Translations under genes and position numbers: made by a program | The notes under the pieces: generated by a model | The model's database searches: none | Seen by the model: only the letters and a program-made list of their open reading frames with translations | Told to the model about the DNA's origin: nothing | Part shown: in pieces, positions 16,315 through 19,283 of the stretch | Layout: each line of letters starts with the position of its first letter | Numbering within the stretch: position 1 is the stretch's first letter | Assembly: GCF_023701345.1 (NCBI RefSeq) | Contig: NZ_JAMPXE010000008.1 | Span: forward strand, 1-44,982 | DNA: 44,982 nucleotides | Direction: 5' to 3' | Source: Rhodoferax sp. | GTDB taxonomy: Bacteria; Pseudomonadota; Gammaproteobacteria; Burkholderiales; Burkholderiaceae_C

Positions 16315-16841
16315 GGGCACACTCTATCAAGGCTGGCGGCATCGAGGCAACGCAGCAGGGAGGCACCCAGCTTTGTGTGCGCCGTCAGGCTCACCCGGCG
16401 CGATGCGTCATCATCCACTTCGAGACGGACCACCAGGTCGGCCAGCGGCACGCAGCCGGCGGCCTTTTCGGGCCATTCGGCCAGTTTCAGGCCGGAGCTG
16501 GCAAAGATGTCGCGAAAGCCGGCATCAAGCCATTCGCGCGGGTCGCTGAACCGGTAAAAGTCGAAGTGCCAGACATGGAGGTCAGGCAGTTCATAGGGCT
16601 CCACCACGGCGTAAGTCGGGCTTTTGATGCGTCCCTGCACTCCCAGTGCCCGCAGCAGATGCCGCACCAGCGTGGTCTTGCCCGCGCCCAGATCACCTTG
16701 CAGTTCAATGTAGGCCAGGCGCAGTTCCGGCACTTCCGCCAGCGCGCGGGCAAATTTTTCGGTGGCGGCTTCATCGCGCCACAGCAGGGTTTTTACAATG
16801 GGCAGGTGATCAACACCATGCAGCAACTCAACGGCAGTCAA
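16311..16841 (-). CDS. tsaE: tRNA threonylcarbamoyladenosine biosynthesis ATPase TsaE
   Basis: A protein of about 176 residues that acts with TsaB and TsaD to make t6A at position 37 of ANN-decoding tRNAs. Walker A is LQGDLGAGKTTLVR, followed by KSPTYAVVEPY and HFDFYR, all TsaE hallmarks. The start is uncertain: the frame offers TTG at 16841 or TTG at 16826 and no ATG. Either start overlaps the ATG of the divergent queG gene. It is coupled to amiC by an ATGA overlap; a tsaE-amiC pair is common in proteobacteria. Confidence 0.93.
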   Translation of the reverse strand: MTAVELLHGVDHLPIVKTLLWRDEAATEKFARALAEVPELRLAYIELQGDLGAGKTTLVRHLLRALGVQGRIKSPTYAVVEPYELPDLHVWHFDFYRFSDPREWLDAGFRDIFASSGLKLAEWPEKAAGCVPLADLVVRLEVDDDASRRVSLTAHTKLGASLLRCLDAASLDRVCP

Positions 16842-17903
16842 TGGGTCTCCAGAATTCAGGATTGGGGGCGGGCATTGGGATTTTCACAAATTGGCGTCGC
16901 AGGCGTCGATTTAACGGATGCAGAACCCGGATTATCGGCATGGCTGGCCGCTGGTTTCCATGGTGACATGTTTTACATGGCGTCACATGGCCTCAAGCGC
17001 GCGCGTCCGGCCGAGCTGGTGCCGGGCACTGTGCGCGTGATCACCGCGCGCATGGATTACCTGCCCGCCAGCACACCCGAGGGCTGGCAGGCGCTGGAGT
17101 TCGACCGGCTCAAGCAGCCGACAGAGGCCATTGTCTCGGTCTATGCCCGTGGCCGCGACTACCACAAGGTGATGCGCCAGCGCCTGCAAAAGTTGAGCGA
17201 CCAGATCACCGCTGCGCTGGGGCCGCTGGGCTACCGGGTGTTCACCGATTCGGCCCCGGTGCTGGAGGCCGAGCTGGCCAGTTTGAGCGGCCTGGGATGG
17301 CGCGGCAAACACACCTTGCTGCTGAGTCGCGAGGCGGGCTCGACGTTTTTTCTGGGCGAGATTTTTGTCGACATGGCCTTGCCAGTGACCGAGCCCGTGG
17401 CCAACCACTGCGGCAGTTGCAGCGCCTGCATGGACATCTGTCCGACCCGGGCCATCGTGGCCCCGTACCGGCTCGATGCCCGGCGCTGCATCTCCTACCT
17501 GACGATCGAACACGCCGGGCCGATCCCGCTGGAACTGCGCCCCTTGATGGGCAACCGCATTTACGGTTGCGACGATTGTCAGTTGATTTGTCCCTGGAAC
17601 AAGTTTGCCAAGCGCAGTGCCTTGCCCGACTTTGATGCCCGCGCCGGGTTGGCAGGCAGCCAGCTTATTGAGCTGTTTGGCTGGACCGAAGAGACGTTTT
17701 TGCGTTTCACCGAAGGCAGCCCGATCCGGCGCATTGGCCATGAACGCTGGTTGCGCAACATTGCGGTGGCACTTGGCAATGCGCTGCGTGTTGCTGATGC
17801 GGAGTCAGCCAGGCCTTTGGTGGCCGCGCTTGCGTCGCGTGCCGAGCATCCCAGTGCTTTGGTGCGTGAGCACGTGGCGTGGGCTTTGGATCAGAAAAAG
17901 TAA
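16818..17903 (+). CDS. queG: Epoxyqueuosine reductase QueG
   Basis: A 361-residue cobalamin-dependent iron-sulfur enzyme that reduces epoxyqueuosine to queuosine in the wobble position of GUN tRNAs. Two ferredoxin-like clusters are visible: CGSCSACMDICPT near residues 198-210 and CDDCQLICPWN near 251-261. The C-terminal region with RHEW-like IGHERWLRNIAVALGN is the usual HEAT-like tail. ATG 16818 gives MQQLNGSQWVSRIQDWG and family length; the open frame upstream is antisense to tsaE and rejected. The stop is followed by the unusual stem-loop region. Confidence 0.95.
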   Translation: MQQLNGSQWVSRIQDWGRALGFSQIGVAGVDLTDAEPGLSAWLAAGFHGDMFYMASHGLKRARPAELVPGTVRVITARMDYLPASTPEGWQALEFDRLKQPTEAIVSVYARGRDYHKVMRQRLQKLSDQITAALGPLGYRVFTDSAPVLEAELASLSGLGWRGKHTLLLSREAGSTFFLGEIFVDMALPVTEPVANHCGSCSACMDICPTRAIVAPYRLDARRCISYLTIEHAGPIPLELRPLMGNRIYGCDDCQLICPWNKFAKRSALPDFDARAGLAGSQLIELFGWTEETFLRFTEGSPIRRIGHERWLRNIAVALGNALRVADAESARPLVAALASRAEHPSALVREHVAWALDQKK

Positions 17904-17922
17904 CTGCAGGTTCGCCTTACCC

Positions 17923-17998
17923 ACGCAGCGGCTGGCTTTGGCGGCTTCCTCATACTGGGGTACCAGAAATCGTCAGCCCCCAAAGCCAGCCACTGCAC
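17923..17998 (-). repeat. Stem-loop element A (conserved apical loop, minus-strand sense)
   Basis: Bases 17923-17946 pair with 17975-17998 over 24 positions with one mismatch; the core is GGCTGGCTTTGG against CCAAAGCCAGCC. The 28-nt loop holds a 25-nt sequence (17948-17972) that recurs, inverted and exact, in element B. Three imperfect positions become G-U pairs only on the minus strand, so that strand is taken as sense. It starts about 20 bases after the queG stop and could also act in ending queG transcription. Confidence 0.75.
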
Positions 17999-18097
17999 TA
18001 GCGCGCGTGAAGTGACTATGAAAGGTTTACTGTGGTCACGCCCAAACCTCAAAAAGAAACGGTATTTGTCTGTAAAAAGCCTCCGCAAATCACCACA

Positions 18098-18177
18098 TCG
18101 CGTGGTAACCGGCAGGGGTGGTCACCGATTTCTGGTACCCCAGTATGAGGTGGCCGCCCCTGCCGGTTGCCGCGCGA
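18098..18177 (+). repeat. Stem-loop element B (conserved apical loop, plus-strand sense)
   Basis: Bases 18098-18125 pair with 18150-18177: 28 consecutive pairs, four of them G-U on the plus strand and no mismatch. The stem sequence (core ACCGGCAGGGG) is unrelated to that of element A. The apical region 18126-18150 is identical to element A's loop and contains its own small hairpin CTGG-TACC-CCAG (18132-18143). GCAAATCACC occurs just outside each end of the stem, at 18085 and 18179. Confidence 0.75.
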
Positions 18178-18237
18178 AGCAAATCACCGCAGTTCGATCT
18201 CGGCAAGATGAGGTCACCGCGCGAAGCAAATCACCGC
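18170..18237. repeat. 21-bp direct repeat, period 47
   Basis: An identical 21-base sequence containing GCGAAGCAAATCACCGC is found at 18170-18190 and 18217-18237. The second copy is preceded by GATGAGGTCACC, which resembles the end of element B's loop (TATGAGGTGGCC), so it may be a truncated copy of the element's 3' half. Confidence 0.7.
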
Positions 18238-18269
18238 CGTTGGAATGCGGCAAAAAGAAGACGCGTTAA

Positions 18270-19184
18270 TTAAATCAACGCCCTCAAAACCCCCAGCGCT
18301 AAAGGCAAACTCAGCATGCCAAGCACGGTGGACACGGTCACCAAGGCCGCCACATAGGCGCCGTCATACCCCATGCGTGCCGCCAAAACATAACAGCTTG
18401 ACGCCGTGGGCAGGGCCGAGAACATCAGCAAAATGGTGGCCTGCACCGGGTTGAGCTGAAACACCAGGCACACCGCCAAGGCCAACAGCGGCATCAGCAA
18501 ATGGCGGATCAACAACACCGCCAGCCCCAGCAATTTGGCATGGTTCAGGGCGCTCAGTTGCATACCGGCACCCGCGGCCATCAAGCCGAGCGCCAGCGAC
18601 GCTCCGCCAATGCGGGTCACGGTGGGTTCGGCCCAGCCCGGAATGGACAAACCGGCCAGGTTGGCCGCCAGGCCGCTGGCGGTGCCGATGATCAGCGGGT
18701 TGCGCACCAATTCGCCCAGAAAACCGCGTTTGGCGTGGCGCGCCATCGGCCACACCGCGCCGATATTCATCAGCGGCACACTGACGCCAATGACCAGCGC
18801 AATCGCCAGCAGGCCCGGGGGGCCGGCCAGCCGCTCGGCCAGCGCCAGGCCGATGAAAGAGTTGAACCGGAAGGCAATTTGTGCACTGGCGGCGTGCTGG
18901 CGTGCAGCCACATGACCTTTGAGTCCCGGCCAGTAAGGCACCGAGTAGGCCATGGCAATACCGCCCAGTCCCAGAGCCCAGCCGGCCCCCACCAGGTTGC
19001 TGGCCGCACTGATGTCGAGCGGGCTTTTCAGGATGGAATGAAACAGCAGCACCGGGAAGAACAAAAAATACACCAGTTGTTCCACTTGCGTCCACACGGC
19101 ACGGTTCAAAGGCGTGAAGCGGCAGATCAGGTAGCCGATCAGAATCAGCGAGAAATCAGGAAAGAGGAGTTGGGCGTAGTTCAC
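18270..19184 (-). CDS. AEC family transporter (auxin efflux carrier/malonate type)
   Basis: A 304-residue inner-membrane protein with about ten hydrophobic helices, of the AEC family, which includes bacterial malonate and other small-acid carriers. The repeat structure shows in LVYFLFFPVLLFHSIL near residue 40 and RNPLIIGTASGLAANLAGL near 165, and a C-terminal FSALPTASSCYVLAARMG, a typical AEC motif. GTG 19184 gives the family N-terminus (NYAQLLFPDFSLILIGY); an upstream ATG at 19229 would add 15 odd residues. Neither start has a strong ribosome binding site. The substrate is unknown. It is divergent from xerD. Confidence 0.85.
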   Translation of the reverse strand: MNYAQLLFPDFSLILIGYLICRFTPLNRAVWTQVEQLVYFLFFPVLLFHSILKSPLDISAASNLVGAGWALGLGGIAMAYSVPYWPGLKGHVAARQHAASAQIAFRFNSFIGLALAERLAGPPGLLAIALVIGVSVPLMNIGAVWPMARHAKRGFLGELVRNPLIIGTASGLAANLAGLSIPGWAEPTVTRIGGASLALGLMAAGAGMQLSALNHAKLLGLAVLLIRHLLMPLLALAVCLVFQLNPVQATILLMFSALPTASSCYVLAARMGYDGAYVAALVTVSTVLGMLSLPLALGVLRALI

Positions 19185-19283
19185 GCCCTGAGAATAGCAG
19201 GCCCACCGCGTCAAAATCGTCGATAACACCCACAGCGGTCAGCTCGGCATAAGATCAGCGCTCTTCTGTTTGCACCCCAAGCC

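Follow-up and report, generated by a model that had tools for sequence, protein, structure and literature searches.

Two inverted hairpins in a convergent gap

The window, i.e. the whole stretch of DNA analysed in this work, comprises 44,982 nt of the Rhodoferax sp. contig NZ_JAMPXE010000008.1. Two hairpins in opposite orientation occupy the gap between a gene which we take, from its sequence, to be queG (epoxyqueuosine reductase) and a convergent gene, presumably encoding an AEC-type transporter:

16818..17903, plus strand: presumed queG gene, stopping 17 nt before the hairpin A unit
17921..18000, minus strand: hairpin A, of type A by its inner end (..GCTGA / AAGC..), with the loop read on the minus strand
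17948..17972, minus strand: conserved 25 nt at the apex of A, in which the internal loop segments CGATTT / TATGAGG flank the mini-hairpin CTGG-TACC-CCAG
18001..18097, no strand: spacer between hairpins A and B, crossed only by a mechanical 85-aa ORF (18012-18269)
18098..18177, plus strand: hairpin B, of type B by its inner end (..GTCAC / TGGCC..), with the loop read on the plus strand
18126..18150, plus strand: the corresponding 25 nt at the apex of B, an exact reverse complement of 17948..17972
18165..18258, plus strand: two tandem 47-nt units, 81% alike, starting within the outer arm of B
18270..19229, minus strand: presumed AEC-type transporter gene, convergent with queG

The identical 25-nt sequence in opposite orientation, noticed in the original prediction, is indeed present at 17948-17972 and 18126-18150 as exact reverse complements, while the chance expectation for such exact 25-mer pairs in the window is about 9e-7. 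The long paired stems described around it are also found: with column i set against column 81-i, hairpin A has 24 pairs over columns 3-26, with one G-G mismatch and three G-U, and hairpin B has 29 pairs, rather than the 28 first counted, made of 25 Watson-Crick and four G-U with no mismatch. All seven G-U pairs fall, as had been stated, on the strand where the loop reads CGATTT. The two stems had been said not to resemble each other, which is too strong, as 29 of 52 positions are identical in register in what are two GC-rich stems; the suggested pairing between the two loops has no greater support than the complementarity common to any inverted copies.

Both hairpins fold much better than expected, with z-scores of -7.9 (A) and -12.1 (B) as RNA and of -7.7 and -9.4, respectively, as DNA, and in all four comparisons the minimum energy is weaker on the strand opposite to the loop-sense. 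No Rfam family was matched at gathering score in the whole window. A doubling like that of the 47-nt tandem units is visible by eye in close relatives, e.g. at locus L189.

Distribution of the family

The exact 25-mer occurs in at least 119 stretches of GTDB genomes, so that the pair is not a local duplication. Titles among the 80 matches listed name Rhodoferax, Polaromonas, Limnohabitans, Curvibacter, Comamonadaceae or Burkholderiales/Betaproteobacteria. When the window sequence was searched against 40 genomes, 16, including its own and all of its own genus, were found among the matches listed, and none of the 16 genomes of other genera. Of 60 genomes of the genus, 35, among them the window's own, contain a degenerate 23-mer, going by the matches listed; the reversed pattern, used as control, occurs in none of the 60.

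Searching related genomes with a covariance model, as had been proposed, revealed many further copies, with the same loop and with stems which are different yet paired. The model, built on 61 hairpins, scores hairpin A at 83.2 bits (E 1.2e-16) and hairpin B at 92.7 bits (E 5.5e-19). Under the stricter filters used for the family, order and class searches, the family yielded, among the matches listed, 28 genomes with the hairpin out of 120, and the rest of the order one out of 97 (G199, where the apex carries a 43-nt insert); of 281 genomes drawn from the class two carried it, both belonging to the window's own family. Plasmids gave no match in a distant BLASTN search with window positions 17900-18280, nor did IMG/VR with the exact 23-mer.

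The loop string GGTACCCCAGTATGAGG was not found in the literature searched; CGATTTCTGG, combined with Comamonadaceae or hairpin, gave as its only literature match a paper on an unrelated subject, judging by its title, and excerpts of PMC5217627 hold nothing on this hairpin element. The inverted pair in the window is a member of a little-studied, dispersed family of DNA hairpins of the Rhodoferax-Polaromonas-Limnohabitans group.

Pairing of the stems and strand preference

For the evaluation of the stems, 222 hairpins were collected by their loop alone, allowing up to 5 mismatches. In the better of two registers, their arms pair at 0.938 of 23 positions; combining arms from different hairpins lowers this to 0.581. 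A less redundant set of 67 picks was defined by a pairing score of at least 50, reached by 210 of the 222, and by less than 72% identity. The alignment of 61 hairpins omits the picks L046, L109, L066 and L091. Four CTGAA-class picks are omitted from it because one extra inner A shifts their register.

Within these 61 rows, preselected for the above pairing score, 90.1% of cells pair, and changes on both sides are observed in 27 of the 29 outer pairs. Doubly changed cells are 622, against 181 in shuffled alignments; the covariation score is 0.780, against 0.174 after shuffling and 0.11-0.17 in slid registers. The pairing of the stem is kept, while its sequence, over a unit of about 80-93 nt, is free.

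The strand-specific wobble of the window is seen in the family as well. On the loop strand of the 61 hairpins, G-U combinations number 96 and A-C 23; hairpin by hairpin, G-U is ahead in 42 cases, A-C in 5, and 14 are ties. In the larger set of 216 hairpins (the 222 minus six scoring below 40), where G-T and A-C were scored alike, the figures are 422 and 102. Since G-U is found so far above A-C on the CGATTT strand, this strand is the one whose fold is kept.

Internal loop and apex

The near-constant part of the family is the internal loop, CGATTT opposite YATGAGG. The original prediction of a conserved 25-nt loop therefore stands for these two segments, which are fixed, and fails for the whole 25 nt. 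Likewise, the CTGG-TACC-CCAG mini-hairpin is present in the window and is not a conserved component of the loop: the apex varies freely, both among the model matches, where CTG-GGCGTGTGA-CAG, CGC..GCG, CTGC-TC-GCAG and a 43-nt insert are found, and among 43 apex strings, at least one of which (L061 4827) resembles a chance match.

On inspection of its letters, the internal loop can be drawn as a C-G pair followed by tandem G-A, U-U, U-A and U-U, which would make it a non-canonical motif. Just outside it, type A hairpins carry a second GA/GA step (columns 27-28/53-54), where other types have GC/GC, AC/GT or CC/GG. In a variant seen at L166, L138, L168, L170 and L260, an extra small hairpin (GGCTGCGCC..) lies between CGATTT and the mini-hairpin, and at L259 575 the internal loop of one copy is interrupted by a different repeat, GGGGTCAGAGCACG.

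Arrangement and genomic localization

Copies are scattered over many unrelated places and lie mostly at the 3' ends of genes, either singly or in outward-facing pairs. Where neighbours in the set of 222 lie no more than 400 nt apart, they are minus-plus, as in the window, in 68 cases, plus-plus in 2 and plus-minus in 1; in the minus-plus neighbours the loops are 96-336 apart, and a pair is often made of one hairpin of each inner type. Outward inverted pairs, two hairpin types and location at gene 3' ends are all features of BIMEs. Spacing may be very regular: in the Polaromonas-type genome G135 it is 155-156 between the loops of all 12 aligned pairs, and the spacer is a palindrome, the centre of which is present, by eye, in both orientations. 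At loci of the Limnohabitans type, the single hairpin occupies the centre of a GGGGTCAGATCAACATTAATTT palindrome; the loop is found in 26 of 29 such palindromes and is absent from 3.

The GGGGTCAGATCAACATTAATTT palindromes (L043, L053, L069, L141 and others) contain the loop in either orientation relative to the outer arms. At G561:C3:270-1111, four hairpins of like orientation follow one another at 174-240 nt and a fifth is inverted, giving a tandem array of the kind described for BRE. Two loci of the window's own genome, L003 1506 and L006 124, feature chimeras in which a left arm of one type is joined to a right arm of the second; these, and L060 5518, may be real inversions at the loops or assembly artefacts.

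Flanking genes could be assigned on both sides within 400 nt at 116 places, of which 76 are codirectional, 29 convergent and 11 divergent, as compared with 44, 9 and 30 in 83 loop-free gaps of 150-800 nt taken from GTDB loci; these counts rely on a home-made gene finder and treat orthologous loci separately. By the same gene finder, lone hairpins in codirectional gaps are sense in 15 cases and antisense in 21, some "lone" hairpins having partners which differ by insertions (L184 turned out to be a pair). Two of 166 places (L098 and L151) were called intragenic, as were L360 and L361, near doubtful ORF starts. As to intrinsic terminators, no U-run was noticed by eye behind the hairpins.

Subfamilies, retention and copies within genes

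The copies form genome-specific subfamilies: in seven genomes stem identity is 0.61 within and 0.457 between genomes, and the nearest relative is found in the same genome for 59 of 89 hairpins. At some orthologous places, namely parC-parE, queG and a Limnohabitans locus, the element is retained, with stems drifting but still paired. In the survey of queG, for which 30 loci were read of 55 matches, it is present at 5 of the 13 loci where the transporter follows queG, in one of them with hairpin B truncated.

In one genus, lone hairpins are found in frame within fdhA (formate dehydrogenase alpha), uvrA and a gene for a HrpA-type helicase (hrpA), in all three antisense to the gene. At L337 5196-11180, the hairpin is an in-frame linker of a 1994-aa UvrA-type protein. 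Compared with solved homologues, which match on both sides, the link measures 75 residues instead of 25 in FdhA and 65 instead of 5 in UvrA; the homologue links being so much shorter, more than the hairpin was added there. The copies in fdhA and uvrA encode a common peptide, PG(A/S)SCGEPKS(S/L)PG.

Of 14 genomes of the genus with an fdhA match, three (G151, G586 and G562) align through the hairpin stretch, which is absent from all four links read among the others (L377/L388, L378, L384 and L399). Compared with G586, the G564 gene is short of a net 31 codons at the hairpin point; no target-site duplication is visible between these two, the flanks of which have diverged. To judge from the aligned genes, the difference is an insertion at the DNA level.

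A larger common unit, of about 350-400 bp, surrounds the hairpins at L249, L250 and L251 (G013); L250 is without hairpin B and the spacer, and its ends are near-clean.

Replication strand

In the genus with the intragenic copies, 19 of 22 lone hairpins are oriented opposite to the sign of the surrounding GC skew (p 9e-4). The 22 include all lone hairpins of G151 (12), G586 (7) and G564 (1) and 2 of the 7 of G562, and the independent number is smaller, since some of them are orthologous; a G151 hairpin near the terminus (1206316) was scored as a miss. G151 is a complete genome; its skew turns at about 1.17 Mb, and its contig starts with what we take to be a dnaA-like ORF.

Other genera give 3 of 7 (G010 1 of 4, one of these hairpins, L354, having a degenerate plus-strand loop nearby; G144 2 of 2; G071 0 of 1). 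Counting also seven regions where the skew is flat or short (six in G122, and L362 in G144) adds 6 of 7, bringing the figure to 9 of 14. The replication-strand bias is thus not general. By analogy, the placement in the first genus would resemble that of attC bottom strands, which in sedentary integrons reportedly have the foldable strand on the leading-strand template, as stated in a portion of PMC5371416; we regard this likeness as suggestive only.

Interpretation

Conserved loops, covarying stems and strand-specific wobble had been taken in the original prediction to indicate either a structured RNA or a folded single-stranded mobile DNA, and these are still the two live readings. The pair in the window may best be explained as a non-autonomous mobile DNA element of the Burkholderiaceae/Comamonadaceae, recognised as a folded single strand, a reading to which we assign an even chance (about 0.5). 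It is favoured by the in-frame copies in genes and by the fdhA genes lacking the hairpin. A trans-acting enzyme, not encoded beside the copies read, would bind the folded strand through the internal loop, and the long, arbitrary stem would only hold this loop in place. Single hairpins or inverted pairs might be moved while the DNA is single-stranded, during replication or transfer. In an inverted pair each DNA strand would have one well-folding hairpin at its 3' side, so that the pair could work in either orientation. After insertion, copies located behind genes would be tolerated and persist over long periods.

ORFs near hairpins were clustered in search of an autonomous copy, and the clusters listed were mainly orthologous loci, with no recognised enzyme; for the element as a whole, no sharp end or target-site duplication could be demonstrated. 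Besides these negative findings, mobile DNA has against it that Y1 transposase genes do not track the element, that the replication-strand bias is not general, that paired stems persist at orthologous places, which also suits a host function, and that the tolerance of G-U is at least as typical of RNA.

An RNA element, transcribed with the upstream gene or alone, is the alternative to be taken most seriously, though on balance it appears rather unlikely. An RNA-binding protein would read the tandem G-A / U-U loop, and 3' ends would be protected or trimmed, the inverted pair supplying one sense hairpin to the transcript from each side. Covariation and G-U preference are explained equally well by such an element, which would also agree with G-A in type A at columns where other types have pairs, with the placement behind genes as compared with loop-free gaps, with retention at orthologous places and with the location of BRE, a possible relative, in the region of the small RNAs bprJ1 and bprJ2 in Bordetella, according to a passage of PMC3110155. 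However, lone hairpins are not oriented with transcription, the copies within fdhA, uvrA and hrpA are antisense to their gene, the window holds no Rfam family, and the distribution in the genus (the 35 of 60 genomes among the matches listed) is patchy.

That the family consists of REPINs or BIMEs proper, moved by a RAYT-type Y1 transposase and with gyrase/IHF binding as in the BIMEs of E. coli, seems improbable. Inverted outward pairs of two inner types, location at gene 3' ends, genome-specific subfamilies and the Limnohabitans-type lone hairpins inside GGGGTCAGA-ended palindromes (26 of 29) are in keeping with it, and Y1 transposase genes are found in 23 of 26 congeners. These genes, however, do not track the element, being found alike in genomes with and without it; the three congeners with no Y1 match, whose genomes are 69-86% complete, carry the element, and no loop lies near the seven Y1 places read out of 12 (L158, L172-L177). 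Moreover, the stem sequence, which defines REP families, is not conserved, most outer pairs changing on both sides. At the left base of 211 units, GTAG is not enriched (7 against 13.1 expected; right base 5 against 7.3) and CGTC is little enriched (20 against 12.4; right base 7 against 12.7). A RAYT as mover is hence not supported, Y1 presence being independent of the element and no Y1 gene lying beside a loop at the seven places.

Distinctly improbable is a third explanation, by which the 25-mer is a binding site in double-stranded or cruciform DNA, with stems kept paired by template switching or gene conversion between the arms. The central palindrome of the Polaromonas spacer, present by eye in both orientations, is a sign of arm-to-arm exchange, and the chimeric hairpins of the window's own genome (L003 and L006) may be added to it. 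Conversion, however, predicts equal numbers of G-T and A-C mismatches, as against the 96 and 23 recorded, and with a variable apex no 25-bp double-stranded site is conserved.

A cassette system, in which hairpin pairs carry genes between them, as in integron cassettes or Xer modules, is very improbable indeed and was given up as the principal reading. In its favour, a BglII-type restriction endonuclease lies together with an N6/N4 methylase between hairpins at a parC-parE junction (L060 5518-7382), and a BrnA antitoxin gene is placed likewise in L068 and a glutathione S-transferase in L171. Against it, the usual minus-plus spacing leaves no room for a usual gene, attC boxes are lacking, and in L166 the gene found in the spacer encodes an ordinary DDE (IS5-type) transposase. 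At L060, the left hairpin is no longer paired along the whole stem.

Returning to a mobile element recognised as a folded strand, we tentatively suggest that it could represent a structure-reading system distinct from attC and IS200/REP, whose candidate enzyme would read the internal loop and ignore the other sequence of the hairpin; this possibility we find somewhat less than probable. If only the internal loop were read, stem and apex could be rewritten while the element stays mobile and adds neutral linkers to core proteins.

In most repeat families the sequence is kept and the structure follows; here hardly anything besides the internal loop is preserved, stem and apex drifting as long as pairing holds. 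Searches based on sequence only will miss much of such a family. The hairpins provide a natural experiment on the structural recognition of folded strands and a defined motif to fish for the protein involved, as well as a case in which a mobile hairpin has entered the genes of core proteins while preserving the reading frame.

Comparison with known systems

Several known elements resemble this family in part. MITEs are likewise non-autonomous, small, intergenic and dispersed; they differ in that no terminal repeat or target-site duplication was demonstrated here.

A possible relative is the Beta-proteobacterial repeat element, BRE, reported in 2011. Excerpts of PMC3110155 describe it as 75-91 bp long, GC-rich and intergenic, sometimes within coding sequence, occurring in Bordetella, Polaromonas, Rhodoferax, Delftia and Acidovorax, with mobility suggested. 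Size, base composition, taxa and habit are thus alike. In those excerpts, however, BRE is defined by a sequence identity of over 70% and described as tandem repeats, and neither a hairpin, an internal loop nor covariation appears. BRE may be an early, sequence-based sighting of the same family or of a sister one; being likened by description and not by sequence, it limits any claim to novelty.

REP, BIME and REPIN sequences are short palindromes, mostly found downstream of genes and often with partners in opposite orientation, as reported in parts of PMC3733652. Downstream palindromes, inverted partners, genome-specific subfamilies and a supposed movement in trans are common to them and to our hairpins, which differ by their free stem and conserved internal loop, by GTAG not being enriched and by no RAYT being seen alongside.

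Rickettsia palindromic elements, RPE, are small mobile palindromes of about 150, inserted in frame within unrelated conserved genes, as described in sections of PMC10969869. The in-frame copies in fdhA, uvrA and hrpA, unrelated conserved genes, are of the same kind; the taxa are different, the unit is shorter and what it conserves is a structural internal loop.

Integron attC sites, as presented in portions of PMC2727003 and PMC5371416, show little sequence conservation and are recognised as folded single strands. Structure prevailing over sequence, a strand choice built into the hairpin and a foldable strand on the leading-strand template are points of likeness, whereas R boxes are lacking here, no array was seen and the conserved part lies near the apex and not at the base. 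Identity with attC was rejected on the R boxes, RYYYAAC..GTTRRRY being present in none of 211 units (shuffled mean 0.08); in reverse order the boxes occur in 9 of 211 units, a figure without a shuffled control. Failing the sequence tests for both REP and attC, the family would nonetheless appear, by analogy, to work like REP/BIME, RPE and attC.
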